A stretch of 64,000 nt of DNA from a virus: positions 1 to 64,000 of IMG/VR virus record IMGVR_UViG_3300003324_000440; one strand, written 5' to 3'. The notes beneath the pieces were generated by a model that had not been told where the DNA came from, ran no database searches, and saw only the letters and a program-made list of their open reading frames with translations. Every line of letters starts with the position of its first letter. The stretch's first letter is position 1. Positions 3,616 through 55,660 of this stretch are shown piece by piece. Both the position numbers and the translations under genes were made by a program.

Positions 3616-3971
3616 CGACCGCGATGCCTACGGATGTGCGGTGGCAGTACCAGGACGTGCCGCCCCGGACCCGCACCCGGCTGGCTGGCACGGACCTCGA
3701 GGTGGAGGTCCAGCCGGTCGCGGTCGTCGGGAACTGGGGCAGGCCGGGGTACCGGTTGTGTCGGGTCCGCTATGCCGTCGCGCGTTGGGTCGACCGCGGC
3801 CGGGGGTGGGCGTGGTTCCAGGTGCAGGTCGGGGAGACCGGGCCGATGGTGTCGCGGACGTGTTCGGTCGGCAAGCGAGACCCGTTCGGGGGTGGGCCGG
3901 TGGCGTCGACGGACGGGCGGGTGAAGGTGTGGCGGGTGGCTCAGGCGGGTATGGGCGCGTCCGCGAAGTAG
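3612..3971 (+). CDS. Hypothetical phage protein
   Basis: 119 residues, GTG start overlapping the upstream stop as GTGA. Beta-rich ([30 protein letters not shown]). Its last 31 bases overlap the 3' end of the oppositely oriented resolvase gene, so the two are convergent. Confidence 0.6.
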
Positions 3972-4537
3972 CGGTGCAGTGAGCCACGGGGGATGCCTGT
4001 CTTCGCCGTGATCTGGCTGAACGAGTGCCCCTGCCCCTTCAGCAGCCGGGCGTACTCGATCGCCGCGTCAGTGTGCGCGAGGGGGCGTCCGACGCGTCGT
4101 CCGTTCGCCAGTGCGACCGACCGGGCATGCGCCGCGCGTTCGGTGGTGAAGATGCGCTCCATTTCGGCGAACAACGCGAGCATGAGTACCGCGACCCGGC
4201 CCATGCCTTCGTCGGCGGTGTTGATGGGCAGCGGGTCGGCGATCGAGCGGACGTTGACGCCGCGCTCGTTCAGGTCGTGGACCAGGTTGAGTACCTCACG
4301 GAGGTTCCGGCCGAGCCGGTCGAGCGTGCAGACGACGACGGTGTCTCCGCTACGGACGTAGGCGAGGAGTTGGTTGAGGCCGTCGCGGTCGACGGTGGCG
4401 CCTGACTTCTTGTCGACGTACAGCCGGTCGTTGGGGATGCCGGCCTTGCTGAGGGCGTCGAGTTGGCGGTCGAGATGTTGCTGGGTGGTGGAGACGCGGG
4501 CGTAGCCGAGCTCCAGCCCGGTGGGTGTGGGGTTCAT
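3941..4537 (-). CDS. Small serine recombinase (resolvase/invertase)
   Basis: 198 residues, the normal size for the Tn3-resolvase/Hin group. The catalytic domain starts with YARVSTTQQ (nucleophile Ser16) and continues through [13 protein letters not shown] with the catalytic Arg residues, then the long E helix ([20 protein letters not shown]). Residues 165-192 form an HTH ([19 protein letters not shown]). Family knowledge: such enzymes resolve multimers or invert DNA. It is the only leftward gene among the first 29 kb, as if inserted. Multimer resolution of a circular prophage-plasmid is a reasonable inference. Confidence 0.88.
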
Positions 4538-12529: not shown

Positions 12530-12883
12530 ATGGCGAAGAACGCGGTCTACATGTGGACCAAGTCGCGTCCGCTCACCTGCTCGGACCCGGCAACCCCCGC
12601 ATCCGGGGACCCGGTGCTGTGCGGGCAGATCCCCGGCGTCGCGCTCGCCGCCGAGGATGCCGCCGGCGTGACCACGGTGGCGCTGAACGGGGCGTTCGAC
12701 CTGTCCGTCAAGGGCATCGACGGCTCCGGCAACTCCGCCGTCGCGCTCGGCGACAACATCTACTACGTCACCGGCGACACGCCGAAACTGTCGAAGAAGG
12801 CGACCGGGGTGTTCTTCGGCCGCGCGCTCGGCACGGTCTCCTCGTCGGCGACGGCCACGATCACCGTTGAGGTTGGTGCCTGA
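12530..12883 (+). CDS. Capsid decoration protein, DUF2190-like
   Basis: 117 residues, beta-rich. The pattern GQIPGVALAAEDAAGVTTVA, FDLSVKGID, GDNIYYV and VFFGRALGTVSSSATATITV matches the DUF2190 type of head decoration or stabilisation protein that usually sits just before the major capsid gene. The stop overlaps the capsid start (TGATG). Confidence 0.75.
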   Translation: MAKNAVYMWTKSRPLTCSDPATPASGDPVLCGQIPGVALAAEDAAGVTTVALNGAFDLSVKGIDGSGNSAVALGDNIYYVTGDTPKLSKKATGVFFGRALGTVSSSATATITVEVGA

Positions 12884-14115
12884 TGACGATCGCAACCATC
12901 GACAGCCCGACCTCGACGCTCGGGCAGCTCGGCATGTACGAGGGCGGCACGGCCGCGTCCGCCACCGACGCGATCTACGCGTACGAGGGTCAGCGGCTCA
13001 ACCGCCGCGCCCGCCGCAACGAGGACCGCGAGTACCAGCGGCGCCTCGGCGGGCTGGTGCGGCTGTACCGGGACGTGGTGGAGGGCGACCGGCGCGCGGC
13101 GATCGCGTTCCGTGAGGCCATGTCCACGTCGGACTTTTCATACCTGTTCGGCGACGTGATCGACCGGCAGTTGCTGGCGGCGTACCAGACACGGCCGGTG
13201 CAGTGGTCGTCGATCGCGAAGCGCGGCCGGGTGCGGGACTTCCGCACCGTCAAGCGGTTCACGCTCGACGGCGGCGAGGCTGTGCTCGACGCGGTGAAGG
13301 AGCTCGCGCCGTACAAGCTCCGCTCCGTCACCGACGGGTCGTACTCGTACGCGGTCGGCAAGTACGGCGACAAGATCGCCGTGTCGTGGGAGTCCATCGT
13401 GGACGACGACCTCGGCGCGCTCGCGGACCTGCCGACCCGGCTCGGCAACGCCGCCCGCCGCACCGAGGAGCGGTTCGTGACGGCGCTGTACGCGTCGTCG
13501 ACCGGGCCGAACGGCACGTTCTTCTCGACGGCGCACAAGAACGTCATCAACTCGACGGTGCTCGGCACGGGCACGCCGACCAACCCGGCGCTGACGATCC
13601 AGGGCCTGCAGTACGCGATGCAGGCGCTGGCGCAGCAGGTCGACGCCGACTCGTCGCCGATCTACGTCGAGGGTGTCGTGCTCGTGGTGCCTCCGGCGCT
13701 CGAGGTGGCGGCGATGAACATCGTCAACGCGACCGAGGTGCTCGCGGCGACCGGCGGTGGCGACGGGACGGGCAACGACCAGTTGCGGGTCAACAACTGG
13801 ATGGCACGGCGGATCACGGTGCAGGTGAACCCGTGGCTGCCGATCATCTCGACGACGAACGGGAACACGTCGTGGTACCTGTTCGCCGACCCGAACGTGG
13901 GCCGTCCGGCGATGGAGGTCGGTTTCCTCATCGGGCACGAGACGCCGGAGCTGTGGGTGAAGTCGCCGAACGCGCAGCGGGTCGGCGGCGGCACGGTGGC
14001 TCCGGAGGAGGGTGACTTCGACAACGACGCCGTTCAGTACCGGGTCCGCCACGTCCTCGGCGGCACCCTGATGGAGTACCGCAGCGCTGTCGGCAGCAAC
14101 GGAAGTGGCGCCTGA
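12883..14115 (+). CDS. Major capsid protein (HK97 fold, Mu gpT-like)
   Basis: 410 residues. This subunit builds the icosahedral shell. Order and content agree with gpT-like capsid proteins: a helical N-arm (to about 85), then SDFSYLFGDVIDRQLLAAYQ, KRFTLDGGEAVLDAVKE, SYSYAVGKYGDKIAVSWESI (E-loop/P-domain region) and ERFVTALYASSTGPNGTFFS, ending with WYLFADPNVGRPAMEVGFLI and the A-domain strands. It follows the decoration gene with a one-base overlap. Confidence 0.9.
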   Translation: MTIATIDSPTSTLGQLGMYEGGTAASATDAIYAYEGQRLNRRARRNEDREYQRRLGGLVRLYRDVVEGDRRAAIAFREAMSTSDFSYLFGDVIDRQLLAAYQTRPVQWSSIAKRGRVRDFRTVKRFTLDGGEAVLDAVKELAPYKLRSVTDGSYSYAVGKYGDKIAVSWESIVDDDLGALADLPTRLGNAARRTEERFVTALYASSTGPNGTFFSTAHKNVINSTVLGTGTPTNPALTIQGLQYAMQALAQQVDADSSPIYVEGVVLVVPPALEVAAMNIVNATEVLAATGGGDGTGNDQLRVNNWMARRITVQVNPWLPIISTTNGNTSWYLFADPNVGRPAMEVGFLIGHETPELWVKSPNAQRVGGGTVAPEEGDFDNDAVQYRVRHVLGGTLMEYRSAVGSNGSGA

Positions 14116-22259: not shown

Positions 22260-24977
22260 TTGGCCGACCGGACCGTGGCCGTCAGCCTCAAGCTCAGCAT
22301 CGCCGACTACCTTGCCAAGACACAGCAGGCGAAACGCGCCACCGGCGAGTTCTACGCCGAGCTCGGCAAGTCGAAGCAGGCGAGCGACAAACTGTCGTCC
22401 GGGATGCTCGTCGCGGGCGGGGCGCTCGCCGCCGGGTTCGGGCTCGCGGTCAAGGCCGCCGCCGACTTCGACCGGCAGATGTCCCACGTCAGCGCCGTCG
22501 CACAGGCCAACGCGAAAGACCTCGACGCGCTCCGCTCGTCCGCCATCAAGGCCGGCAAGGACACCCAGTTCTCCGCCACCCAGGCCGCACAGGCGGAGGA
22601 GGAGCTCGCCAAGGCGGGCATCTCCGCGAAGGACATCATCGGCGGCGGGCTACGCGGCGCGCTGGACCTCGCCGCCGCCGGCACCCTCGACCTCGCCGAG
22701 GCCGCCGACATCGCAGCCAAGGCGATGAACACCTTCGGGCTGTCTGGCAAGGACGTCCCGCACATCGCTGACGTGCTCGCCGCCGCCGCGAACAAGTCCG
22801 CCACCGACGTCCACGAGCTCGGCTTCGCGCTGAAGATGGGCGGCCTCGCTGCCCGCAACTCCGGCCTGTCGCTGGAAGAGACCACGGGCGTGCTGGCCGC
22901 GTTCGCCGACCGCGCGCTCGTAGGGTCCGACGCGGGCACGTCATTGAAGACGATGCTGCAGTTCCTCGCCAACCCGACCGAGAAGGCGTCGAACCTGATG
23001 GCCCGCCTCGGCATCGACGTGTACGACGCGCAGGGCAACTTCGTCGGCATCACCAAGACCGCCTCGATCCTGCAGACCCAGCTTGGGAAGCTCACCCAGG
23101 AAGAACGCAACGCCGCTCTCGCGACGATCTTCGGGTCGGACGCGACCCGCGCGGCAACGGTGCTGTACGAGCTCGGGTCTAGCGGCCTGCAGGATTACAT
23201 CAGCGCCGTCAATGACCAGGGCGCGGCGACCGAGACCGCCGCGAAGAAGACCGACAACCTCGCCGGGGACCTCGAGCGGCTGAAGGGTTCGCTGGAGACT
23301 GTCGCGATCGAGGCCGGGTCCGGCGCGAACGGTGGCCTCCGGGACCTTGTGAAGGTCGCGGGCGCGCTGGTCGACGAGTTCGGCGAGCTACCGGACGGTG
23401 TCCAGTCCACCCTCGTCGTCCTCGCTGGGGTCGCCGGGGTGAGCCTCCTCGCTGCAGGCGGGTTCGTGAAGGTCCGGTCCACCCTCAAGGACACCATGAC
23501 GGCGCTGTCCGAGATGGGCCCCGCCGGGGAGAAAGCGGCCACCGGCATCGGTAAGGTCGCCAGTGTTGCCGGCAAGGCCGCCGTCATCGGCACCGTCGCA
23601 CTCGTTGCCTATGAGGCTTTCGACGCGCTCGGCAACTGGATCGCATCATTCTCCGCCCCGACCGCCCGCGACATCGACAAGATGTCCGCCTCCCTGAAGG
23701 ACTTCGCCAACAGCGGCAAGGCCGCCGGCGAGTTCGCGAACGTCTTCGGCCACAACCTGGAGAGGCTCAGCGCCAACGTCCGTGCCGTGCAGGAGTTCAA
23801 CAAGGCCATGGCCGAGGCTCCTGAACGGACTCGCGAGCTCGCGAAGTCGTGGGAGAAGATGGGCGGCGTCGGGCCCGGCGCGTTGCAGGTCAAGAAGCTC
23901 CATGACATGAACGTCCAGCAGCGCACCGACATCGAGGCGCTCGACAAGGCGCTCGCGAACCTGGTGTCGTCGGGTGGCGCGACGCAGGCGAAGCTGGCCT
24001 TGGACCAGATGCGCGTGTCGGGGAACATGACGCACGCCGAGTTCGACGCGCTGGTGTCGTTGCTACCGCAGTACAACGCGGCGGTGGCGGACGCGGCGAC
24101 CGCGAACACCGGTTTGGCGAAGGGTTTTGGTGACGCTGCGGCAAACGCCCGGACGATGAAGGGGTCGCTCGACGACGCGATCCGCTCCGGCCAGTCATTG
24201 ATCGACGTGTTCAACCAGCTCAACGGCGCCGCGCTGGACGTGTCCGACGCGGAGATCGCCGCCGAGAACGCGGTACGCACGCTGAACGCCGCGCTGAAGG
24301 AGTCCCACGGCAGCCTGGACATCACCACCGAGAAGGGCGCTGCTGCGCGGCAGGCGCTCAACGACCTCGCCCGCAAGGGTGCCGAGGCCGCGCAGGCGGT
24401 GTACAACCAGACCGGGTCGGCGCAGGCCGCGTCAGCGGAGTTCGCCAGGTACCGGCAGAAGCTCATCGACGCGGCCGTTGCCGCCGGGTACGCCCGCGAC
24501 AAGGCCGCCGCGCTGGCCGACGAGCTCATGCAACTCCCTTCGTCCGTGCCGATCAGCATCAGCGTCACCACCCACTACAAGACCGTTGGCACGCCCGGCG
24601 CGCAGTACGAGGTGGGTCGTGGGCTGTCACGCGACCGTGCCGCCTACGGCGGGATTCGCGACTTCTACGCCGCAGGCGGCATGCGGGAGGACCACCGCCC
24701 GCAGGTGCTGCCCGCCGGGGCGTGGCGCACCTGGGCCGAACCCGAGACCGGCGGCGAAGCGTACATCCCGCTTGGCGCGGGCCGCCGCAACGCCGCGCTC
24801 GGCACCCTCCACGCCATCAACCGCCGCTTCGGCAACCCCTTCGGCGGCGGCGGTGGCGGCCCCGTCGCGGTGACCATGCACATCAACGGCGGCGGGTCCG
24901 GCGCCGAGGCGATGGTCGCGAAACTGCTCCAGAACATGCAACGCACCGGCCAGCTACAGCTCACCGCCAGCAGGTAG
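22260..24977 (+). CDS. Tape measure protein (TP901 type)
   Basis: 905 residues from a TTG start, 15 bases after the frameshifted gene. The tape measure sets tail length. Diagnostic segments: GMLVAGGALAAGFGLAVKAA (about 48-67), FSATQAAQAEEELAKAGISA, AMNTFGLSGKDVPHIADVLA, ANKSATDVHELGFALKMGG and FGSDATRAATVLYELGSSG. The middle is hydrophobic and helical. The C-terminus ends with a Gly-rich linker and a basic helix. Roughly 1.5 angstrom per residue predicts a tail of about 135 nm. Confidence 0.93.
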   Translation: MADRTVAVSLKLSIADYLAKTQQAKRATGEFYAELGKSKQASDKLSSGMLVAGGALAAGFGLAVKAAADFDRQMSHVSAVAQANAKDLDALRSSAIKAGKDTQFSATQAAQAEEELAKAGISAKDIIGGGLRGALDLAAAGTLDLAEAADIAAKAMNTFGLSGKDVPHIADVLAAAANKSATDVHELGFALKMGGLAARNSGLSLEETTGVLAAFADRALVGSDAGTSLKTMLQFLANPTEKASNLMARLGIDVYDAQGNFVGITKTASILQTQLGKLTQEERNAALATIFGSDATRAATVLYELGSSGLQDYISAVNDQGAATETAAKKTDNLAGDLERLKGSLETVAIEAGSGANGGLRDLVKVAGALVDEFGELPDGVQSTLVVLAGVAGVSLLAAGGFVKVRSTLKDTMTALSEMGPAGEKAATGIGKVASVAGKAAVIGTVALVAYEAFDALGNWIASFSAPTARDIDKMSASLKDFANSGKAAGEFANVFGHNLERLSANVRAVQEFNKAMAEAPERTRELAKSWEKMGGVGPGALQVKKLHDMNVQQRTDIEALDKALANLVSSGGATQAKLALDQMRVSGNMTHAEFDALVSLLPQYNAAVADAATANTGLAKGFGDAAANARTMKGSLDDAIRSGQSLIDVFNQLNGAALDVSDAEIAAENAVRTLNAALKESHGSLDITTEKGAAARQALNDLARKGAEAAQAVYNQTGSAQAASAEFARYRQKLIDAAVAAGYARDKAAALADELMQLPSSVPISISVTTHYKTVGTPGAQYEVGRGLSRDRAAYGGIRDFYAAGGMREDHRPQVLPAGAWRTWAEPETGGEAYIPLGAGRRNAALGTLHAINRRFGNPFGGGGGGPVAVTMHINGGGSGAEAMVAKLLQNMQRTGQLQLTASR

Positions 24978-35295: not shown

Positions 35296-36030
35296 TCATG
35301 GCTTCACCATCGTCGACCCGGCGGCCAACGGCGGCGCGAGCAGCCACAGCGCGCCGACCACCGCCGCGATCGCGCCGAGCGCGACCACCGTAGTGCGACG
35401 GCGACGTGGTGACCGTGCCCACCACACCAGCAGCCCGACGGGTAGCCCCACAGCCCCGTACAGCCGTCCTTGCGGCGGAACGGTGGTCAGGTGGCCGGAC
35501 GTCCACCACAGCACCGCTCCGAGCGCCAGCCACGCCGTGAGATACCCGACGGACGCGTTCCTGCGGCGCCGCCACCTCGGCGACAGGCGCGGCGCCCGAC
35601 GGCGACGCTGCACCGCCTCGACACCTCGCGCCGTCCGTGGTCTCGGCCGCTCCACATACCCTGCCGCGTCGAACGGCTGCGGGTACAGGTCCGGACGGTA
35701 CGGCGTCCCGTCCACATGCCGCATGGTGTGCGGGTCCACCCGGTCCGGGTTGCCCTCGTTGCACTGGATGTTGAACCGTGGTCGCAGGGTGCGGATCGCG
35801 TGCTCCTCGGCGGCCAGCACCTCCGCCTCGGTCGCGAACGTGGCGACCTGAAGGTGGTCGCGGATCTCCTGTCGCCATGGCTGGTCTTTCAGGTGCTCGA
35901 CCAGCCGGCGTAGCCCGTCGTTCGACTTGCCGACGTAGATGAGCGCGTCGTCGAACCCGATGAGGTGGTAGAGCACCCAGCCGCCGGACGCTGCCGACGG
36001 CTGGGGCATGGAGCGGGTGGCACGGGTCAC
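35296..36030 (-). CDS. GIY-YIG nuclease-like protein with membrane segments
   Basis: 244 residues; GTG 36030 overlaps the upstream stop. Residues 18-92 are a GIY-YIG domain (WVLYHLIGFDDALIYVGKSN, a basic helix RRLVEHLKDQPW, AAEEHAIRTLRPRFN). After a basic linker come three hydrophobic segments (YLTAWLALGAVLWWTSG, LYGAVGLPVGLLVWWA, VVALGAIAAVVGALWLLAPP). Family knowledge: GIY-YIG enzymes nick or cut DNA. A membrane-tethered version is unusual and could attack incoming DNA. Confidence 0.7.
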   Translation of the reverse strand: MTRATRSMPQPSAASGGWVLYHLIGFDDALIYVGKSNDGLRRLVEHLKDQPWRQEIRDHLQVATFATEAEVLAAEEHAIRTLRPRFNIQCNEGNPDRVDPHTMRHVDGTPYRPDLYPQPFDAAGYVERPRPRTARGVEAVQRRRRAPRLSPRWRRRRNASVGYLTAWLALGAVLWWTSGHLTTVPPQGRLYGAVGLPVGLLVWWARSPRRRRTTVVALGAIAAVVGALWLLAPPLAAGSTMVKP

Positions 36031-38882: not shown

Positions 38883-41258
38883 TCACGCCGCACCACCATC
38901 GGCTGTGGCCAGCTCCTGAGCGGCTAGCACCTTCGCCTCGTGGTCGATCCGCGTCTGCGCCGTCAACTCGTGCCGGCCGTTCGCCGACTGCACCTGACCC
39001 TGGTCCCGCAGCCGCTTCACCGCGTCCCGGATCGTCTTCGTCGCGTACCGGTGTCCCAACCGAACGAGCTCGCCATTGAGCGTGTCCATGTCCAACGAGC
39101 CACGCGCCGCCGCTAACACCGAGAACACCGCGTCCACGGACACCACCGCTTCCGACGGGGAAGCTTTCGCGGTAGACCCTGCGCCTGCATCCCATGGCGT
39201 CGCGTTCGGGTCCGCCATGTGCGCCACCCACGCCGCGTACTCCTTGCCGAACGCCGCCACCGTCTCCGGCGGCAACGTGGCCGGGTACCCGACCGGCTCG
39301 TCCTGGTCATCACGGACCCAGTCGTAGAAGTCCGGCTCCCACATCGACCGCACAAGCATCGGCTTCGGCGCCAACCCCGACAGCAGAAACGCCATCCCCG
39401 GCACCTCCGGGATCGTCCGTGGGTCCACCTGCAACCGGCCGTTGAACGCCACCGGCCCCGACAGCGAGTTCGCCGTCCGCCCCACCCACACGAACCCGCC
39501 CGTCAGCATGTCCCGCAGCGCCATCGACCCACCCAGGTCTGACAGCAGCGGCGTGTGCGTCGCCACCCGGATCCGGATTCCGCACTTGCGGTACATCCGC
39601 GCCCCTGACGTCACGAGCGCGGCGAACGGCTTGTGTGCCAGGTACTCGTGCGCCTCGTCGATGTTCAGCGTGATGATCGGGCCGTCAACGAGTGGGTTCC
39701 ACCACTTGCGGCCCTTCCGCATGACCGGCGACCCGTCCCGCTTCCTGCGCCTCGGGTCCGGCCACTCCACCCGCGCCAGGTACCGGTTGCGGCGGAACAT
39801 CTCTTGCCGCAACGCCTGCACGAGCAGCATCGCCTCGTCGAGCGTGCACGCCATCGGCGCGGCGAGGTCGTCAACAAACGGCCCGTACGACTGGCCCTGC
39901 TGTGGGTCGATGAGCAGGTCCGCGACCAGCCCTCGCCGGACACCGTTCACGTCGACGTAGCTCGCCCACCGGTCAATGGTCAACAGGAGCGAGAGCGTAT
40001 CCGACTTACCGGCGCCGGTAGTTCCACACAGGAAGTCATGCGGGGTGCCCCAGTCGGGCCGGTACAGTTCGTAGTAGGCGAGCGTCCCGTCCTTGTACTG
40101 CGCGATCGGCGCCCGGCATGCGGCCACGTCAACTGAGTCCGGACCGGCCCACCGGACCGTGTCCCTGATCGCGGTGGTCCGTTGCGTCGACACCAGCGCG
40201 CGGCTCTCGTCGTCCTCGTCGGGGATGACGGTCACCATCGACGCCTTCATGTTGAACGTCGACGCGATCGCACCCCGCGCCGCCAGGAACGATTCCGACG
40301 TATACGCGCCGGGCGGGCCGACTGCGGTCGCCGCCCAGCCACCCTCCACCCGATGCCAGCCTTCGAGCCATGTACCGGCGAGCTTCCCGGCTCGCTTCGT
40401 CTTCACCGGCTGTCCGTGCGCGTCGACACCGGCTGTCTCGCCCTGTTCGACAGCGAGGATGGCCGTCCACTTGCGACGGACCTCTACCTCGAGCGGGTCC
40501 ACCTGCACGCCGGGTGGCGGTTGCTCGGCGATCACCGACGTAGGCCGGTTCCGCTGTCCGGCGAGCCAGCGCCACCACGGCACCGCCGATGCAGCCGTGA
40601 CCAGCGGCCATGCCGCCAGCGACACAGCACTGCCGAACATGTGCGGGTCCACCCCGGTCGCTGTCGCCAACGCCAGCCACTCCGCACCGGCCAGCGTCCC
40701 GTACGCAGCGACCCGGGACCGCTTCGCCAGCGTCGCCCGGTGTCGCCTTTCACCGTCCGGGTCATCGTCGGAGATACGACCCTTCTTCTTCGCCTGCTGC
40801 ACCAGACGGGCCGCCACGACGCGGCGGACCGCCTCGGCGAGCACCAGGCCTGTGGCGGACAACGCCCACGCTGGCATGGATGCCGCCTCGTGCAGCGCCA
40901 CTGCGGCGGGCAACGCTGCCGCGAACGGCCACACCGGACGCAACGGCGGCTCCACCGCCCGCCACAGGTCCAACCACGGCAGCAGCGGCGCGGACCGCAA
41001 CGGCTGCACCACCATCTGCCGGTCGTGCACCTCGCATACCGGGGCCGCCTTCAGCCCAGACGGGAACCAGCGGCCTACCTCGCACTTGCGGCACTTGAAC
41101 TGCTGCCCGACCACCCGCCCGTACTGGTCCACCGGAACCTTGTGCCGTGACATCCGCTGGCGCCCGCTCTCGTCGAAGTACACCTGCGACCAGCGCGACG
41201 TACCCGCACCGGGCATGCCCCTGCTTCCGGGTTGCGACACGCTGGTGTCGGGTTGCAT
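38883..41258 (-). CDS. traB: FtsK/SpoIIIE-type conjugal DNA translocase (TraB-like)
   Basis: 791 residues. N-terminal zinc motif CRKC...CEVH (56-78), then membrane-spanning hydrophobic segments (about 105-230), then a motor domain with Walker A CGTTGAGKS (411-419) and Walker B IITLNIDEAHEYL (528-540). The C-terminus has a winged helix (about 735-775: LVRLGHRYATKTIRDAVKRL), like the DNA-recognition end of TraB/FtsK-gamma. Established knowledge: one TraB hexamer moves double-stranded plasmid DNA between actinomycete hyphae. SpdB-like and membrane genes upstream and a GntR repressor support conjugation rather than cell-division FtsK. Confidence 0.85.
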   Translation of the reverse strand: MQPDTSVSQPGSRGMPGAGTSRWSQVYFDESGRQRMSRHKVPVDQYGRVVGQQFKCRKCEVGRWFPSGLKAAPVCEVHDRQMVVQPLRSAPLLPWLDLWRAVEPPLRPVWPFAAALPAAVALHEAASMPAWALSATGLVLAEAVRRVVAARLVQQAKKKGRISDDDPDGERRHRATLAKRSRVAAYGTLAGAEWLALATATGVDPHMFGSAVSLAAWPLVTAASAVPWWRWLAGQRNRPTSVIAEQPPPGVQVDPLEVEVRRKWTAILAVEQGETAGVDAHGQPVKTKRAGKLAGTWLEGWHRVEGGWAATAVGPPGAYTSESFLAARGAIASTFNMKASMVTVIPDEDDESRALVSTQRTTAIRDTVRWAGPDSVDVAACRAPIAQYKDGTLAYYELYRPDWGTPHDFLCGTTGAGKSDTLSLLLTIDRWASYVDVNGVRRGLVADLLIDPQQGQSYGPFVDDLAAPMACTLDEAMLLVQALRQEMFRRNRYLARVEWPDPRRRKRDGSPVMRKGRKWWNPLVDGPIITLNIDEAHEYLAHKPFAALVTSGARMYRKCGIRIRVATHTPLLSDLGGSMALRDMLTGGFVWVGRTANSLSGPVAFNGRLQVDPRTIPEVPGMAFLLSGLAPKPMLVRSMWEPDFYDWVRDDQDEPVGYPATLPPETVAAFGKEYAAWVAHMADPNATPWDAGAGSTAKASPSEAVVSVDAVFSVLAAARGSLDMDTLNGELVRLGHRYATKTIRDAVKRLRDQGQVQSANGRHELTAQTRIDHEAKVLAAQELATADGGAA

Positions 41259-41293
41259 GGCGGTTCGACCTCCTGAACGCGCGTGATGGCTGG

Positions 41294-42556
41294 CTAGCTA
41301 GTGGCGTTGTCTGCGGCGCCGTGCAGCCGGTTGTTTACCGCGTCGATGTCATTCGCGCCACGCATCGCTCCCACGCGAGACTGGGACCCCGCTGGGGCCG
41401 CTGTACCCGCAGACGCGGTCGGCGAGTAGTTGGCTCCTTGCGCGTACGGCGAGTTGTTCCGAACCTCGCCACCCGAGCCGACCCCGGTGGCACCAACCCC
41501 CGAGTCCAGGAACCGGGAGTCGCCGGACAGGTTCCCGGCGACCGTCTCGTGCGCGTCGCCGTACGTCTTGCGAAGGTGGTCGATCGCCGCCTCCGTCTCA
41601 GCCAGCGCGACCTCAGCAGCCTCGCGGCGCTCCTTCGCGACGGCCTCGATGTCCTCGACGTTGTCGAACATCGCATCGACCCGTCCGGCGGGCAGCGCGT
41701 CCGCGGTTGTGCCGGTGTGCGCCAGCGTCGTCCCGTCGAGGTTCATCCCCGACAGTTGGTCGTGCGTCGACGAGGCGGTGTCCGACGAGTGCTGGTAGGT
41801 CTGCTGCATCTGGTCGACCGCTTCCTTCAACGCGGCAGCGGCGGCCTCGGCGGCGATCGCGGCGTCAAGCTCGGCGCGCTGGTCCACGGCGAGCGCCTCC
41901 AGGGTGGCGATCGCGGTCTCGTAGTTGGCGGCCTCGCCGGTCGGTGCGGCGGTAGGTGCGGTCACGACAGGTTCCTTTCTGGTCGGTGCCCGGTGTCGCC
42001 CTGCGGCAGGCTCCGGAGTTGGTTCTGGTTTAGGTTCGGGCGCGGGCCGCCAGTGGGAGCCGTCCCATTCCTCCCAGCCACGGTCGGTAAGCCGTCGGGT
42101 ACCAACCGGGGTGTCCATGGGCGTCTCATCCACGTCAGGCTGGTCAACCCGGGCGAGTTCGTCCTGCCGCTGGTGCGGCGGCACCGGGTCCACCAGCCGA
42201 CGAACGGGGCCACTCGCCACAACCTGTTGCACGCCACCGACGATGGCGTCCCGGCCCGCAGTGAGACGGTCCCGGAACCGCACCCTCGGTTCGCCAGACG
42301 CTTTCGCCTCGGCCTTCGCGTCGCGGGACGCGATCAGCGAGTCCGTCGCCCGCGCCCACGAGTCCCGGTACGAGTCCCGCAGGTAGTCGAAAAACCCGTA
42401 CTTCGCGACCTTCGCTGCCGCCTCGCGGTCGCCGTACTTCGCTTGCATCCGCGGAGACACGAGACCCTGCTTGGCGTAGTTGTTGTCGACGACCGCGTCT
42501 CCGATAGCCTTCTTCCCTGCCCACATCAGCAGCAGGATCGCCAGCAGCATCTCCAC
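41294..42556 (-). CDS. Transfer-module protein with N-terminal membrane anchor and coiled coil
   Basis: 420 residues from a GTG. A hydrophobic N-terminus (LLAILLLMWAGKKAIGDAVV) is followed by a charged helix, a Pro-rich linker (residues 165-195), and a long coiled coil (about 205-340: VDQRAELDAAIAAEAAAAAL). The end is low complexity. Proteins like this lie beside traB in actinomycete integrative and plasmid elements. Role probably in transfer or spread; no catalytic motif. Confidence 0.65.
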   Translation of the reverse strand: MEMLLAILLLMWAGKKAIGDAVVDNNYAKQGLVSPRMQAKYGDREAAAKVAKYGFFDYLRDSYRDSWARATDSLIASRDAKAEAKASGEPRVRFRDRLTAGRDAIVGGVQQVVASGPVRRLVDPVPPHQRQDELARVDQPDVDETPMDTPVGTRRLTDRGWEEWDGSHWRPAPEPKPEPTPEPAAGRHRAPTRKEPVVTAPTAAPTGEAANYETAIATLEALAVDQRAELDAAIAAEAAAAALKEAVDQMQQTYQHSSDTASSTHDQLSGMNLDGTTLAHTGTTADALPAGRVDAMFDNVEDIEAVAKERREAAEVALAETEAAIDHLRKTYGDAHETVAGNLSGDSRFLDSGVGATGVGSGGEVRNNSPYAQGANYSPTASAGTAAPAGSQSRVGAMRGANDIDAVNNRLHGAADNATS

Positions 42557-42562
42557 GGTGGG

Positions 42563-42964
42563 CTACCGCCCGACCTGCGTCGAGATGTTGGTGGTGGACT
42601 TCTGGAACCCGCTGCTCGCCTGCTGGAACAAAGCCGGCATCGCCGTGAGGCCAGCGACGAGGAAGATCGGCAGGAGGAAGAACGCGAACAACGCCGGCCG
42701 GTCCGCCCCCTTCTTCTTACCCTTGACGTCCGCCACAATGACCGCACCGAGGACGATCACGCCGATTGCCGCCACGATGCCGACCTGAGCCGCGATCCCG
42801 TTGACCCACGACCCGATCACCGCCGCATAGGTCATGAACCCGGCGAGGGCCGCGAGGACGCACGCGAACCGGCTCAGTCGGAGCCTTTGGTGGATCCAGT
42901 ACGCAGCACCGAACAACGGCAGTCCGCCGAGCGTGGCCAGCCACGCCCCGATCTGGTGGGACAT
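42563..42964 (-). CDS. Four-helix membrane protein of the transfer operon
   Basis: 133 residues: four hydrophobic stretches (WLATLGGLPLFGAAYWI, ACVLAALAGFMTYAAVIGSW, VGIVAAIGVIVLGAVIVADV, LFAFFLLPIFLVAGLTAMPA). Small polytopic proteins are typical of Spd-type spread loci. Six bases upstream of the next gene. Confidence 0.65.
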   Translation of the reverse strand: MSHQIGAWLATLGGLPLFGAAYWIHQRLRLSRFACVLAALAGFMTYAAVIGSWVNGIAAQVGIVAAIGVIVLGAVIVADVKGKKKGADRPALFAFFLLPIFLVAGLTAMPALFQQASSGFQKSTTNISTQVGR

Positions 42965-42973
42965 CTCAGCCTC

Positions 42974-43402
42974 CTAGCTGAAGATCACAAACATGAAGGG
43001 GGAGCACAGCAGCAGCGCCAGCCCGAGCCGGGCCGGGTGGTGCAGCAGCCACAGTGCGGGCGCGACCACCGCCGTCACGACGAGCGCGACGTGGTTGAAC
43101 ACCACCCAGCCGAGCCACAGCGGGCGGTTGTTGCCGGGCACCCGGTCCAGCGCAGGGATTCGCGCCAGCCACAGTTCCCGCAACGTCGGGGCCGACCCGC
43201 GCCACGGCCACGCACCGGCCACATCGGCACGCACCGTAGACCACGCCCGATGCACCTTGCCGAACACAGACAGTGATCGGTACCCTCGCGCGCGCATGAG
43301 CTCAGGAGCCCGCGGCGCGTCAGCCGCCGCGATAGGGCCCGACACCCTGCCGCCGCCGGCCACAGGTGCAGCGAAAGCCTCACTCGCCGTAGTCATCGTC
43401 AC
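42974..43402 (-). CDS. Membrane protein of the transfer operon
   Basis: 142 residues from GTG 43402 overlapping the upstream stop. A soluble N-terminus of about 85 residues, then two hydrophobic segments at the end (WLGWVVFNHVALVVTAVVAP, LGLALLLCSPFMFVIF). Spd-like by size, topology and context only. Confidence 0.62.
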   Translation of the reverse strand: MTMTTASEAFAAPVAGGGRVSGPIAAADAPRAPELMRARGYRSLSVFGKVHRAWSTVRADVAGAWPWRGSAPTLRELWLARIPALDRVPGNNRPLWLGWVVFNHVALVVTAVVAPALWLLHHPARLGLALLLCSPFMFVIFS

Positions 43403-43632
43403 CGGTTCCTCTCGTCCGCCAACTGCGCCACCTGCTCGGCCAGCGCCCGTTCCTCGTCGTCCGGCAGGTTCTTCCCGACCGCCAGCACGTAGTTACAGGC
43501 GACGACGAGACGACGGTGCGCCGACTGAGCCGCAGCAGCTTGCCGCCGCACCAGCGCCGCCAACCTCTCCCGGCGCCGCCTGTCGCGCGCCTCACGGCGC
43601 TCCTCGACGGTTGCGCCCTTGACCGCAGTCAC
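43399..43632 (-). CDS. Small basic helical protein of the transfer operon
   Basis: 77 residues; GTG 43632 overlaps the upstream stop. Highly charged helix EERREARDRRRRERLAALVR then a second helix. Could bind DNA or act as an adaptor. Function unknown. Confidence 0.58.
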   Translation of the reverse strand: MTAVKGATVEERREARDRRRRERLAALVRRQAAAAQSAHRRLVVACNYVLAVGKNLPDDEERALAEQVAQLADERNR

Positions 43633-43835
43633 AACCACCACCCGAACCAGCCCGCCACGAACGACACCAGTAGTAGCGCAAGCAAGGTCCACATGAACCG
43701 ACGCACCACGTAGCCATCGCGGGACCGGTGCGCCACCCACGTGCGGTTCGTCGCATCCGGGTGCGGCAGCGACGTGATGGTGTGCACCCGAAACTCGGAA
43801 CGGGGCAGGTCGACGACGCGGACAGAGGTGCTCAC
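43629..43835 (-). CDS. Small single-pass membrane protein
   Basis: 68 residues, GTG start in an overlap with the spdB-like stop. A beta-like N-terminus, then one membrane helix (FMWTLLALLLVSFVAGWFGW). Part of the transfer operon. Confidence 0.58.
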   Translation of the reverse strand: MSTSVRVVDLPRSEFRVHTITSLPHPDATNRTWVAHRSRDGYVVRRFMWTLLALLLVSFVAGWFGWWL

Positions 43836-45121
43836 TTGGATGCTCCTTCGGGGGTCAGGTCAGCGCCGGCCAGGTAGGCGGCGCGGGCGTCGGTAGCCTT
43901 CGGGCCGTTCCAGTTCTGCTGCCGGGCGATCTCGTTCCGACCCGGTAGGTCGGCGTCCGAGAGGGTGCCGTGGAGGGCGCGAAGGTGGGCGGCGTCGCGG
44001 ATGGCTACCGGCTTCCACTTGGCGGCGGTAGGCGCCTCGGTCGGCGCGGTGGTAGTCGTGTTCGCTACCGGGGTGGTAGCCGCCTTCGCGGTACCGATGG
44101 AAGCCACGGTGCGGCGGGTTCGCTTCTTGGGGGTAGCCGCCCGCTGAGAACGGGCAGTAGGCGCCTGAGAAACTGCGGTGGTAGGTGCGGCTACCCCCCG
44201 GGTGGTAGCCATCCCACGGCGGGCCGCACGACGCGCGTCCCGCTCGATGTTGTAGCCCCGCCACGCCGCCTTCGGGTCACGCACGTTGTGGTCGATCGAC
44301 CAACGCCGAGCCCGCCACGCCCGCACCGGGAACGCCCGGCGGCGGGACGGCGAGAACACCGCCCCCGCGTCGTCGACCAGATGCTCCTTGACCAACTGGA
44401 CGTGCTGGGCGCGACGGGTGTGCAGCCCCCACAACCATGGACTGACCAGCGACAACAGGCCGAAGATGACCGCCGCGCCCGTTGGACGGAACCCCCCGTT
44501 TGCGAAGTGTGTGTAGTTCACCGCGGCAACGACTGCCGCGATCAGGTACGACGCGCGGCGGAGGTGCCCGGCCGTCGCGTAGTTCTTGTTGATCAGTGAG
44601 TCGTGGGCGTGCCAGCCGACATAGAGAGCGATCGCCTCGGCCGCGGCGGCGACCATGACCGCCAGGATGACCCGCGCGGCTACCGGCCAGACGCCGGGCG
44701 CGATGTGGTCGTAGGCGTAGGCGCCCTGCCCGTACACGGCGAGCCCGTTGACGAGCAGCAGCGGCGCGACGAGACGCAAGGTGTCCCGGGTACTGGCGAG
44801 GCTACCGGTAGGCGCCGTGGTGAAGTGGTAGGTGGTAGCCGTTTCGGTGGCTACCACCTCGGCTACCACCTTGCCTACCACCCCGGCGGCGCGAGCCGCG
44901 GCGAGGTCGCCTACCACCCTGCCGTCCGGGTAGATGGTGATCTCCCAGTTGGCGGGATGGGGTCCCGACCGGCCACCGTCTCCGATGCCGCTGACCGGTC
45001 GGGGGTCGGGGCCCGGACCGGCTAGGGGGGCGGCCGGTCCGGGCGTCTTGCCGGCTGGTGCCGGCGCGCCGTTGACCCGCCCTGTAGGGGTGGGGTGGTC
45101 GACGGCGGTGGGGGTCTGCAT
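43832..45121 (-). CDS. SpdB-like spread protein, DUF2637 family
   Basis: 429 residues. A Pro/Ala-rich start and a TIYPDGRVVGDL strand region come first. About residues 115-245 hold four or five hydrophobic helices (VAPLLLVNGLAVYGQGAYAY, VARVILAVMVAAAAEAIALY, AGHLRRASYLIAAVVAAVNY, GAAVIFGLLSLVSPWLWGLH), the DUF2637 pattern of actinomycete Spd proteins. A basic, Thr/Ala-rich C-terminus follows. Established role: Spd proteins help plasmids spread along hyphae after TraB transfer. Start is ATG 45121. Confidence 0.75.
   Translation of the reverse strand: MQTPTAVDHPTPTGRVNGAPAPAGKTPGPAAPLAGPGPDPRPVSGIGDGGRSGPHPANWEITIYPDGRVVGDLAAARAAGVVGKVVAEVVATETATTYHFTTAPTGSLASTRDTLRLVAPLLLVNGLAVYGQGAYAYDHIAPGVWPVAARVILAVMVAAAAEAIALYVGWHAHDSLINKNYATAGHLRRASYLIAAVVAAVNYTHFANGGFRPTGAAVIFGLLSLVSPWLWGLHTRRAQHVQLVKEHLVDDAGAVFSPSRRRAFPVRAWRARRWSIDHNVRDPKAAWRGYNIERDARRAARRGMATTRGVAAPTTAVSQAPTARSQRAATPKKRTRRTVASIGTAKAATTPVANTTTTAPTEAPTAAKWKPVAIRDAAHLRALHGTLSDADLPGRNEIARQQNWNGPKATDARAAYLAGADLTPEGASK
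43872..44923. repeat. Cluster of GGTAGSC / GSCTACC motifs inside the spdB-like gene
   Basis: About twenty copies of GGTAG or its complement CTACC occur in two groups, 43872-44213 and 44810-44923, often as GGTGGTAGCC or GGCTACCACC. The pair GGTGGTAGCC and GGCTACCACC around 44832-44859 forms an inverted repeat. Such density is unlike the rest of the window. It may reflect a DNA-binding site array (for example TraB recognition) or simple Ala-Thr codon repetition. Confidence 0.45.
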
Positions 45122-45123
45122 GG

Positions 45124-45495
45124 CTACGCGGCCACCAGCGCGAGGCGGTTCGGGTCGTCGTCCCAGCCGTTGACCGCGGCGTGACGCGCCCACACCTGCT
45201 TCGGGGTCTCCCACAGGTCGTTGTCGGCCACCCAACGCTGCAGGTCCGCGAGCATGCCGGTCGCCCCGGCGATCGTGGTCGAGGCGTGCATCGCGACGTG
45301 CAGCCCCCGCTCGCTCGCCGCGACCTCGAGCCCCTGCAGGGTGGCGAACAGCAGCGCGCCGGCCGCCTCGACGTGCTTCGCGAGCTCGGCGCGGTGGGCC
45401 GGGTCGAACACGCGAAGGGCGTGGTGCCGGGCGGTCACCTCGGAGGCGGCCGGGTCGGCGGGGGTGAGGGTCTGGGGCTGTACGGCGGTGGTCAT
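45124..45495 (-). CDS. Transfer-operon helical protein
   Basis: 123 residues from ATG 45495. Long helices (HRAELAKHVEAAGALLFATL, AGATGMLADLQRWVADNDLW). Lies between the HTH protein and the SpdB-like gene. No family recognised. Confidence 0.6.
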   Translation of the reverse strand: MTTAVQPQTLTPADPAASEVTARHHALRVFDPAHRAELAKHVEAAGALLFATLQGLEVAASERGLHVAMHASTTIAGATGMLADLQRWVADNDLWETPKQVWARHAAVNGWDDDPNRLALVAA

Positions 45496-45809
45496 GACGT
45501 GGCTCCTTCGGCTGTGGGGGCCGCACGAAGGGCCCCACCGAGACGCTTCGAGACGATCTGCCACACCCGGGAGGAATGCACCCCGACCCGCTCGCCGAGC
45601 TTCACGTACGTGTACGGCCGGGCCGTGTCGGGGTCGATGCGCTGTCGCGCCTGCCGCAGTGCCGCACGACGCACGGCAGCGTGCTCCCGCGGGAACCGGT
45701 GGCCCATGTCGTCGGCAAGCCGCGACAGCGCGGCGGCCCGGTCGATCGGGTCCTCGATCGCCTCGAAGTCGGCTACCGGCGGTGCAGTGGCCGTCGTCGT
45801 GGTTGGCAC
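45492..45809 (-). CDS. HTH protein, first gene of the transfer operon
   Basis: 105 residues from GTG 45809, with GGAGGGAG upstream. The C-terminal half has YTYVKLGERVGVHSSRVWQI, an HTH like sigma-factor region 4 or Trp-repressor types. Probably a DNA-binding regulator or accessory factor for the transfer operon. It is read from the operator-containing promoter at 45854. Confidence 0.65.
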   Translation of the reverse strand: MPTTTTATAPPVADFEAIEDPIDRAAALSRLADDMGHRFPREHAAVRRAALRQARQRIDPDTARPYTYVKLGERVGVHSSRVWQIVSKRLGGALRAAPTAEGATS

Positions 45810-45841
45810 TCGGCGTCTCCCTCCGGGGGCGTTGAGATCTC

Positions 45842-45882
45842 GTAACTCTGCTCATAGTGCACTCTGCGCAGAGTTACGTCAA
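45842..45882 (-). promoter_or_regulatory. Leftward transfer promoter with operator in its spacer
   Basis: On the minus strand TTGACG (45877-45882) and CACTAT (45854-45859) are 17 bases apart. The spacer contains the perfect palindrome ACTCTGCGCAGAGT (45861-45874); an outer pair GTAACTCTG (45842-45850) and CAGAGTTAC (45869-45877) adds a further half-site. Binding by the neighbouring GntR protein would block transcription of the transfer genes. Confidence 0.65.
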
Positions 45883-45928
45883 GCCCGACACCCGACCCGA
45901 TCTCGCACGGACGGGGCAAGATGTGGTG

Positions 45929-45954
45929 CACTGTGTGCACAGTGACACACAGTG
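45929..45954 (+). promoter_or_regulatory. Second operator upstream of the GntR gene
   Basis: CACTGTG TG CACAGTG (45929-45944) is a near-perfect palindrome, with another CACAGTG at 45948-45954. It ends 15 bases before the GntR start, so it is suited to autoregulation. Confidence 0.55.
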
Positions 45955-45969
45955 GAAGGAGTCCAACAC

Positions 45970-46392
45970 GTGACGGACTGGTCAGGTGAGCCGGCATACC
46001 GGCAGGTTGCCGAACACATCCGCGACCGGATCCGCGGTGGCGAGTTCACGGTCGACGACCAGTTGCCGTCGATCCCCTCCCTGATGGACGAGTACACCGT
46101 GTCAACCACAGTGGTCCGGGGCGCGCTGGCCGAGCTTCGCGCCCAAGGAGTTATCTCCACGCACCAGGGCAAGGGTGTGTTCGTACGGAAGGTCCCGCCG
46201 GCGGCAGCGTCAAGAATCCCGGCCGAGGTGTCTAAGCGGCTCGTCGACCTCGAGTCCGCAGTCGAATCCCTTCGCCAAGAGTTCCGGCGGGAGCTCGGTG
46301 CGCTCCAGTCCCAGGTGCTCGACCTCTACGCCCGCACCGGGCAGCCCCGCCCCCGCCAGCAGAACAGGACTCGAAGGACGGCAAACGGATGA
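45970..46392 (+). CDS. GntR-family repressor (KorSA-like)
   Basis: 140 residues. GTG 45970 has GAAGGAG 8 bases upstream. The winged helix fills residues 5-70 (YRQVAEHIRDRIRGGEFTVD, LPSIPSLMDEYTVSTTVVRG, AQGVISTHQGKGVFV); a coiled coil replaces the usual ligand domain (LVDLESAVESLRQEFRRELG). Established knowledge: GntR-type KorSA represses transfer and excision functions in pSAM2. Divergent placement from the transfer operon with palindromes between them suggests the same role here. Confidence 0.8.
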   Translation: MTDWSGEPAYRQVAEHIRDRIRGGEFTVDDQLPSIPSLMDEYTVSTTVVRGALAELRAQGVISTHQGKGVFVRKVPPAAASRIPAEVSKRLVDLESAVESLRQEFRRELGALQSQVLDLYARTGQPRPRQQNRTRRTANG

Positions 46393-47604: not shown

Positions 47605-47615
47605 GCGGGTCTTTG

Positions 47616-47660
47616 AAACCTGTCCCCGACCCTAGGGTGTCGGTCGGGGACAGGTTTTTT
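47616..47660 (+). terminator. Intrinsic terminator of the GntR operon
   Basis: AAACCTGTCCCCGACC (47616-47631) pairs with GGTCGGGGACAGGTTT (47642-47657) around a 10-nt loop and is followed by a T-run to 47660. The stem itself contains two CCTGTCC/GGACAGG repeat units of the adjacent array. Confidence 0.9.
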
Positions 47661-47785
47661 CTTGACCTGTCCTGACCTGTCCTGACACCTGTCCGGGACA
47701 GGTCTGACCTGCGGAAACGCGGGCACCTGTCCTGACCTTGGGGACAGCTTAACAAGTAAACCTGTCCCGCGATCTTGAGGACAGG
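47619..47785. repeat. CCTGTCC/GGACAGG iteron-like array (candidate replication origin)
   Basis: Nine perfect copies: 47619, 47648, 47666, 47676, 47688, 47696, 47726, 47761, 47779 (start positions, both orientations), plus one imperfect copy at 47742. Several are about 10 bases apart, so they face the same side of the helix. The array lies in noncoding DNA just beyond the 3' end of the RepA-like gene. Iterons next to a rep gene mark many plasmid origins; regulator binding is the alternative. Confidence 0.65.
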
Positions 47786-47800
47786 ATGAGCGTCGATGCC

Positions 47801-48835
47801 TCAGGCCGCCTTGCGGTACTTCACGACCTGCGACCACAGCGCGTTGGACACACCGGTGATCCCGGAGCCGATCGCCGCCGCAGCCAGCCGATCGCGACCA
47901 TAGCTAGCGGGGATGCCCGCAGCGTCACATGCCGCCGCGATCTCCTTTACCTTCTCCTCGGCCAGCCACTTGGCCTTCTCTCCAAGCTCAACCGTCGCGG
48001 ACTCCCCCGCTATGGCCAACCGGATCGGGATCGGGTCGGACAGTTCCCCATCCTTGATCTTCCGATGCTCCAAGGTGCGCGGGTTCTTCGCGGACCGGTC
48101 CTCGTTGTCGCCACCAAGCTTGATGACCCACGAGTTGTCGAAGTCGTCCTCGATCGCCGACGCGCCGCGCCCACGGGCGCCGGAGTGCCCAGTGTGATGG
48201 TTGACCAACTGCGTACAGCGGTGGCGCTCGCGCACACGATCCAAGGCGTTGATGACGGCGCCCATCTCGGTGTTGCTGTTCTCCTCGACGCCCGGCGCGC
48301 AACGGTGCAACGTGTCCCAGACGACCATCTTCGGCGTTACCTCGTTGCAGAGTTCACTGACCGCATCCATGTCGCCGCCGTGTCGAAGGTTCACGACACC
48401 GCCAACTACGATGAGCCGCTCATCGGGAACCTTCGCGCCACGGTTGTAAACGCTCTCCCACGCCTCGATCCTGGCGCGCAACCCGGATGCGCCCTCAGCG
48501 GCAATGTAGACCACCGGTCCGGGCTCCGGGATGTCATGGTCGAGCCATGGGCGGCCGGTTGCGACCGAGCAGGCCAGCGCGACGGACACAAACGACTTGT
48601 AGGTGCCGAACTTCCCGGCGAGCAGAGCGAGCGCATTGTCGTTCAGGACGCTTTCAACGAGGTACCGGGGCGGTGGGATCGTGTCCAGCTGTGAGCGCCG
48701 GTAGGTTAGTGCGCGGATGCGGGCTGCACGGGCGCCGTCATCGGTTGCGAGTGTGGCGTCGAGCCCTCGGTCCACCTGAGCGTCGTACGTTCCCCACAAC
48801 TCAGGGTTCCATCGGCCTTGTGCGACTTCGGTCAC
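47801..48835 (-). CDS. RepA-like hexameric replicative helicase/ATPase
   Basis: 344 residues; GTG 48835 overlaps the upstream stop. RecA-fold ATPase: Walker A AGKFGTYKSF (73-82), IAAEGASGLRARI (112-), Walker B KMVVWDTLHR (169-178), sensor region LVNHHTGHSGARGRGASAIE (210-229). This is the AAA_25/RepA(RSF1010)-like pattern. A small helical C-terminal domain may bind partner or DNA. Replication helicase of the element is the likely role, next to the iteron-like array. Confidence 0.78.
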   Translation of the reverse strand: MTEVAQGRWNPELWGTYDAQVDRGLDATLATDDGARAARIRALTYRRSQLDTIPPPRYLVESVLNDNALALLAGKFGTYKSFVSVALACSVATGRPWLDHDIPEPGPVVYIAAEGASGLRARIEAWESVYNRGAKVPDERLIVVGGVVNLRHGGDMDAVSELCNEVTPKMVVWDTLHRCAPGVEENSNTEMGAVINALDRVRERHRCTQLVNHHTGHSGARGRGASAIEDDFDNSWVIKLGGDNEDRSAKNPRTLEHRKIKDGELSDPIPIRLAIAGESATVELGEKAKWLAEEKVKEIAAACDAAGIPASYGRDRLAAAAIGSGITGVSNALWSQVVKYRKAA

Positions 48836-54967: not shown

Positions 54968-55660
54968 CTAGCCGACCGGCGCGGGGCTCACCGGCGCCTC
55001 GGCCAGCTCGCCGCGGACCATCGCCTCGAGCTCGACCGCGAGCGCGTCCATCGGGTCCGGCCTACGGGTGCGGGGCCTGCGCTGCGCGGGGACCTTGGCC
55101 TTTGGCTTCGCAGTCCGGTTACGGGCGTGCCGCTTGCACGGGCAGTCGTCGGCGCACTTACGCGGCTCCGGCTTCACGTCCTCGACCGGCGCGGCCAGTG
55201 TCGCGGCCTGGGTCTCCTGTGCTTCGAGCTCGGCGAAGTCCGGCTTGATCCTCGCGGTGACCAGCTTCAGCCCGACCACGATCGCGACGAGCACCCCGAA
55301 GATGACCCGTGCGAGCAGCGTGCCCGGCGCGGCCACGTTCACCGCCGCCGACAGGCCGCCGCACACGCCGAGCATCCACCCGGCGCCGCGCTTGGCGCTT
55401 CTCGACAGGGCCGGCGTCTGCAACAGCTCGACCATGGTGAGCATGGCGAGGTCGTTGATGCCGGGGATCGCCCAGCCGAGCACGCCGATCGACGGGTCGG
55501 CGGTGAGGAACGTGGCCTGGTGCTGGTAGGTGACGGCGAACACGCCGGTCATGATGGCGCGGGTCTTCCACTTGCTGTTCTTGATGGTCTTCAGTACCGC
55601 CGGTACGACGTTCTTGGCGTACTCGGCGGCGAACTGCTGCGTGAGGGACTGGGTGGTCAT
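54968..55660 (-). CDS. Second DUF2637/Spd-like membrane protein
   Basis: 230 residues. Four hydrophobic helices between about 30 and 135 (RAIMTGVFAVTYQHQATFLT, GWAIPGINDLAMLTMVELLQ, GWMLGVCGGLSAAVNVAAPG, RVIFGVLVAIVVGLKLVTAR) follow the DUF2637 arrangement. A basic Cys-containing tail (CADDCPCKRHARNRTAKPKA) follows. Family context: plasmid spread proteins of actinomycetes. Located 9 kb from the main transfer operon. Confidence 0.6.
   Translation of the reverse strand: MTTQSLTQQFAAEYAKNVVPAVLKTIKNSKWKTRAIMTGVFAVTYQHQATFLTADPSIGVLGWAIPGINDLAMLTMVELLQTPALSRSAKRGAGWMLGVCGGLSAAVNVAAPGTLLARVIFGVLVAIVVGLKLVTARIKPDFAELEAQETQAATLAAPVEDVKPEPRKCADDCPCKRHARNRTAKPKAKVPAQRRPRTRRPDPMDALAVELEAMVRGELAEAPVSPAPVG

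Follow-up and report, generated by a model that had tools for sequence, protein, structure and literature searches.

The stretch of DNA analysed here, hereafter the window, comprises bases 1-64000 of the 73,169-base virus record IMGVR_UViG_3300003324_000440 and belongs to a temperate siphovirus of soil actinobacteria. Gene calls over the whole record place head and tail genes on the plus strand at approximately 1 to 29 kb, lysis-type genes at 29.6-34 kb, a minus-strand block at 35-46 kb and replication and early genes beyond it, with exonuclease/RecT-like genes at the record end. Matches to PHROGs were obtained for the terminase, portal, capsid, major tail, tape measure, integrase and exonuclease, the serine integrase lying at record positions 65445-66989 (5e-70). 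The portal, capsid and tape measure matches bear out an earlier note on this DNA, in which head and tail genes were said to share a contig with a conjugation-type cassette. A phage megablast with the window returned zero matches. The phage also carries a resolvase-family recombinase gene (3941-4537, 1e-36) upstream of the large terminase gene (compare plasmid multimer resolution) and, as its second DNA-pump-like gene, a HerA-like P-loop ATPase gene (window 62313-64025), which matches defence-system HerA models. The main features are listed below; identities are to a prophage of Dactylosporangium roseum unless stated otherwise.

5563-7032, plus strand: terminase large subunit (PHROG 2, 3.5e-30)
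7101-8708, plus strand: portal protein (PHROG 10963, 3e-123)
12883-14115, plus strand: major capsid protein (PHROG 133/4523, 9e-52)
22260-24977, plus strand: tape measure protein (PHROG 1533, 4e-104)
35296-36030, minus strand: GIY-YIG-like nuclease with hydrophobic C-terminus (PF01541 E=0.0015, below cut-off)
38883-41258, minus strand: FtsK-type DNA motor, 791 aa, or 777 aa if the start is at 41216 (PHROG 24831, tblastn, tree)
41294-42556, minus strand: 420-aa protein, N-terminus hydrophobic, C-terminus helix-rich (48% identity)
42563-42964, minus strand: 133-aa protein with three hydrophobic helices (58%)
42974-43402, minus strand: 142-aa protein with two hydrophobic helices near the C-terminus (45%)
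43399-43641, minus strand: small basic protein, 80 aa, ORF open to 43740 (38%)
43629-43835, minus strand: 68-aa membrane protein with a single helix (D. roseum has a membrane protein of 78 aa in this position)
43832-45121, minus strand: DUF2637-like membrane protein (58%; 59% in loci L147 and L165)
45124-45495, minus strand: 123-aa protein without clear membrane helix (ORF calls)
45492-45809, minus strand: HTH-like first operon gene, 105 aa (weak PHROG 836 match, E=0.004)
45841-45878: 38-bp near-perfect palindrome, candidate GntR operator of the operon (palindrome search)
45926-45946: second, related palindrome, candidate autoregulatory site just upstream of the GntR gene
45952-46392, plus strand: GntR-family regulator, start at 45952 or 45970, divergent from the operon (PF00392 E=1e-18)
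47605-47800: intergenic cluster of ACCTGTCC copies, candidate replication origin or cis-acting transfer site
47801-48835, minus strand: AAA_25 helicase-like ATPase adjoining the repeat cluster (PF13481 E=4e-38)

The operon on the minus strand (38883-45809) is intact, with all reading frames open, and the gene calls recovered every ORF named in the earlier note as present and open. From the promoter side it encodes the 105-aa HTH-like protein, the 123-aa protein, the DUF2637-like protein and the 68-aa membrane protein, followed by the basic protein of approximately 80 aa, the proteins of 142, 133 and 420 aa and finally the 791-aa motor. The 133-aa protein is 51-53% identical to its homologs in two Micromonosporaceae loci. 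In the phage and plasmid cassettes compared, a counterpart of the 420-aa protein lies directly upstream of the motor; tblastn of this protein against plasmids gave zero matches, and its N-terminus has a profile match (probability 85) to the plasmid equivalents. The presence of a DUF2637 protein in the cassette, as previously suggested, found partial support: the product of 43832-45121 is weakly matched by tblastn with a plasmid-borne DUF2637 protein (E=5e-4) and its positional equivalent in relative G711 matches DUF2637 (8.7e-6), but Pfam gave no DUF2637 match for the product itself and membership was unsupported by profile-profile comparison with plasmid DUF2637 proteins. The same product possibly has a C-terminal helix-turn-helix. 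Outside the cassette, window positions 54968-55660 encode a further membrane protein, which weakly matches DUF2637 (E=7e-4). The label of Spd-like proteins fits the topology and position of the small membrane proteins, but these have no sequence link to the tested Spd proteins, a group that is highly diverse (PMC4170104). A divergent GntR gene was recovered as proposed, with the two operator-like palindromes lying between it and the operon. This is a KorA/KorSA-type arrangement, KorSA being the GntR repressor of transfer in actinomycete ICEs (AICEs; PMC3218068).

The motor protein carries a Walker A motif (GTTGAGKS) at residue 412 and a Walker B motif (ITLNIDEAH) at residue 529, as well as an N-terminal Cys/His zinc-ribbon-like motif (residues 56-78) and a membrane-anchor region of long predicted helices with modest hydropathy (residues 110-236). 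The C-terminal winged helix attributed to it earlier is indeed predicted, at residues ~707-765 (local pLDDT mostly 65-89), and resembles MarR/BlaI-type winged helices (Z 9-10) in an AlphaFold model that, at a mean pLDDT of 52, is usable for this part and the N-terminal beta domain only; the modelled ATPase part weakly matches the FtsK motor 6t8b (Z 8.7, rmsd 8.2). The Pfam match to FtsK_SpoIIIE that had been expected stayed below the cut-off (E=0.028), but the family assignment itself holds, since tblastn reveals homology to plasmid motors (E down to 6e-28) and the tree agrees. PHROG 24831 also matches the motor (E=2.5e-9). A single-protein search of IMG/VR yielded zero close motor relatives, a scan of genome contigs with a plasmid-based motor alignment gave 48 pattern matches of which zero were confirmed, and a sequence search of solved structures produced no relevant match.

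A tree of 32 motors, including those of the window, D. roseum, PhiNon1 and plasmids as well as pIJ101 Tra and chromosomal FtsK-type proteins, pairs the motors of the window and D. roseum at 100/100, with that of an Actinomadura element adjoining. These belong to a clade of 11 members (99/98) that includes the PhiNon1 motor, that of viral relative G012 and six plasmid motors. Actinomadura sp. WMMA1423 has a same-clade cassette (L087:5635-13800) in its chromosome, ~260 kb from that strain's related prophage. The identification of the motor as TraB, made in the earlier note, did not survive at the level of sequence: pIJ101 Tra, like the chromosomal FtsK-type proteins, falls outside the clade, and it scores with the motor family profile no higher than chromosomal FtsK/EccC-type proteins. 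Because this clade test failed, we have kept the motor out of TraB. The system of the window most likely works like a TraB/Spd/Kor system.

Downstream of the GntR gene, ACCTGTCC occurs in eight copies within 47605-47800, six of them in direct and two in inverted orientation; across 40 simulated sequences of 73 kb the top 8-mer count per 200 bp was 3 or 4. Five relatives have clustered 8-mers, mostly different ones, in the corresponding position immediately 3' of the helicase-like gene (L144:2207-2473, L145:16927-17230, L147:1964-2250, L152:18514-18777 and L153:2036-2282). The region has the appearance of a conserved functional site, and of the two candidates, a replication origin and a clt-like site, we prefer the origin because the helicase gene adjoins it. 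Neither the TRS motif of pSVH1 nor the sps motif forms a cluster in the window, sps being below chance. TraB is known to recognise 8-bp repeats and to move double-stranded DNA (PMC4170104). The AAA_25 helicase and the repeat cluster would be compatible with extrachromosomal replication; the serine integrase points to integration.

The co-occurrence of virion genes and a transfer-type cassette could in principle reflect an assembly artefact in which plasmid and phage contigs were joined. End repeats are lacking in the record and the last ORF is open past the record end, as might be expected of such a join, but GC is even along the sequence and the complete chromosomes of D. roseum and D. fulvum, as well as contigs from isolates and metagenomes, show the same arrangement. 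The complete chromosome of D. roseum contains a prophage with the cassette from membrane protein to motor, with identities to the window of 59% for the motor, 68% for the terminase and 56% for the portal and with the same distance between operon and terminase. A chimeric join near the cassette, which the earlier note had named among the findings that would undo its proposal, is refuted by this independent chromosome, and an artefact has next to no probability. In the D. roseum copy no GntR gene was called alongside the operon; there is an XRE-type regulator gene instead.

The cassette occupies a fixed place in relatives of the phage. In 351 Micromonosporaceae genomes, with thresholds of E up to 1e-12 for the motor and up to 1e-60 for the terminase, the motor was found in 15, the terminase in 8 and both in 6 (Fisher p = 5e-8, which is indicative, the genomes being related). 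All six genomes with both have the motor on the terminase contig, on the opposite strand and within a span of 31-39 kb. D. fulvum is the seventh terminase-bearing genome, and the contig of the eighth ends before the slot. In the D. fulvum prophage the slot (L109:3792-14946) holds a secretion-type version of the module: a canonical 741-aa FtsK (FtsK alpha domain, 2e-60) is accompanied by a multi-TM protein of 558 aa, an M23 peptidase (2.5e-22) and a VirB4-like AAA_10 ATPase (1.5e-21), which two small proteins precede. Searches with the terminase of the window yielded 29 relatives in IMG/VR and six among isolate genomes. In four of the IMG/VR relatives (G002, G006, G012 and G019) the corresponding position is taken by a motor operon whose GntR gene is divergent or lies close by; the more distant G022, G023 and G025 have no motor in the stretch examined, and the records of several others stop short of the slot. 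Eleven further IMG/VR contigs carry the motor. A 700-aa protein near the slot of G014 (L100:6653-8755) was considered as a motor and rejected, as it has a weak match to DUF3631 and none to FtsK models; DUF3631 is a family that serves AICEs as replication initiator (PMC3218068). Downstream of the motor, the GIY-YIG-like gene is a recurrent neighbour, with homologs in L143-L147, L149, L150, L154, L162 and L164.

The slot motors of the phage lineage are spread over several clades and the tree forces at least three changes, from which we infer that the slot has been refilled, although several branches are long and single placements tentative. The motor of G019, for example, groups with gp071 of pZL12 (99/90, a join of long branches). 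It is conceivable, and we put this forward tentatively, that the lineage keeps a dedicated conjugation slot between lysis and early genes into which machines have been swapped, dual dispersal by virions and by cell contact being a lasting trait rather than an accident of hybrid formation; these machines would comprise motors of several plasmid-type dsDNA clades and, in D. fulvum, the VirB4/M23/FtsK secretion-type set.

Plasmid-phages with transfer functions are already known. The Streptomyces plasmid-phage pZL12/phiZL12 (NC_013420) resembles the window in combining virion genes with an operon of small and membrane proteins that ends in an FtsK-type motor and has a divergent GntR gene, but its motor falls outside the clade of the window and it has annotated ParAB, whereas none was noticed in the record studied here. 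PMC3583192 reports that the transfer genes of pZL12 were tested. PhiNon1 of Nonomuraea gerenzanensis (NZ_LT559120.1) is portrayed in PMC5431353 as a plasmid-phage reminiscent of pZL12, and the passages searched in that paper leave a transfer module undescribed. Its motor belongs to the clade of the window (27% identity), its DUF2637 gene and motor-upstream gene are in the same order and it has capsid, portal, terminase and tail genes, as the window has its virion set; yet it represents a different phage lineage, the terminase and portal of the window being without a match there. The cassettes of the Streptomyces/Kitasatospora plasmids pPZG101, NZ_CP108210, NZ_CP108855 and NZ_CP108405 resemble the window in gene order and share its motor clade (28-35% motor identity over the matched part), but have no virion genes in the stretches examined. 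The Tra/SpdB/KorA system of pIJ101 and AICEs like pSAM2 also have an FtsK-type winged-helix motor, small membrane proteins and a divergent GntR gene (PMC3218068), but differ in the clade of the motor, in the lack of any Spd similarity found and in having no virion genes. With a virion gene set and an FtsK-type cassette on the same molecule, the window fits the plasmid-phages with transfer functions on two counts. Taking AICEs as elements with an integrase, RepSA, RepAM or Prim-Pol and an FtsK/SpoIIIE Tra and without virion genes, AICE identity was rejected: virion genes are present and Tra is below the Pfam cut-off. What is new here is that the slot extends across the lineage, that motor families have been exchanged within it and that one prophage has a T4SS-like version. 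In its main text, a survey of prophages and plasmid prophages from actinobacteria (PMC10023795) mentions neither conjugation nor FtsK.

We consider it probable that the operon is a self-contained, TraB-like dsDNA transfer module of a temperate phage, located in a lineage-conserved slot, and spread both by virions and by dsDNA transfer would then be the best-supported reading of the cassette. The motor would form a membrane-anchored ring and use its winged helix to hold the DNA of the phage itself, in circular or excised form, at a cis site, pumping it unprocessed into an adjacent cell or compartment of the hypha. Spd-like channel and spreading factors may be provided by the small membrane proteins together with the DUF2637-like protein, while the divergent GntR protein would silence a potentially harmful operon, following kil-kor logic. 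Support comes from the nearest non-phage motors, which reside on actinomycete plasmids in cassettes of similar order, from the clade that unites the motors of the window, D. roseum, PhiNon1 and the six plasmids, from the VirB4-like AAA_10/M23/multi-TM/FtsK set in the same slot of D. fulvum and from the grouping, on long branches, of the G019 motor with that of pZL12, whose transfer genes were tested. The likeness of the GntR gene and palindromes to the KorA/KorSA arrangement supports it, as do the intact reading frames, Walker motifs and predicted winged helix. Against it stand the position of the motor outside the clade of the experimentally proven Tra, its Pfam FtsK score, the putative Spd-like proteins unlinked by sequence to tested ones and the lack of clustering of the known cis motifs, pSVH1 TRS and sps; the repeat cluster beside the helicase gene may, moreover, be a replication origin. 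Relaxases of the families PF08751 and PF03432 are absent from the viral records and both Dactylosporangium genomes, which fits dsDNA transfer but would suit the rival explanations as well.

FtsK/SpoIIIE motors segregate DNA at septa, and the motor could likewise carry phage DNA through septa, vegetative or sporulation, and thereby supply every compartment or spore with a copy, no transfer to other strains being involved. The cassette sits in the slot in every informative Micromonosporaceae prophage of the lineage, as a maintenance function would, and plasmid Spd proteins do spread DNA within the mycelium (PMC4170104). A phage with a serine integrase, whose D. roseum copy is chromosomal, would however have little need of extra segregation, and both the GntR-controlled transfer-type organisation and the VirB4/M23 version of D. 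fulvum point to export, so that we regard such a role in septal segregation or intramycelial spread as unlikely. In at least 11 of the 15 motor-bearing Micromonosporaceae genomes the cassette adjoins lysis or tail genes of a phage or is separated from the terminase by 31-39 kb; as it is thus mostly a phage module in this family, it may serve a phage function. It could then be a membrane machine specific to the phage, serving for instance superinfection exclusion, envelope change or DNA handling in infection, its likeness to plasmid cassettes reflecting shared ancestry of parts only. The constant location in relatives, where the cassette converges on the lysis genes, and the linked GIY-YIG-like nuclease gene agree with this, but plasmids without virion genes in the stretches examined carry the same multi-gene set and the cassette matches no known defence family beyond generic ATPases, which makes such a machine quite improbable. 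An anti-phage defence system in particular was rejected, PADLOC having given nothing on the cassette beyond those generic matches.

Phages and conjugative elements are usually treated as separate routes of gene flow. If the operon is indeed a transfer module, the phage lineage could spread where virion infection fails, e.g., inside mycelia, and host genes could be carried by either route. As the prophages of D. roseum and D. fulvum reside in complete genomes of culturable strains, the question of whether a phage conjugates can be tested directly.

The motor gene of the D. roseum prophage (L082:8798-12259) contains a 366-aa intein-like insert with a LAGLIDADG-type match, situated exactly at Walker A (GTTGSGK|ALALD...VPTHN|S).
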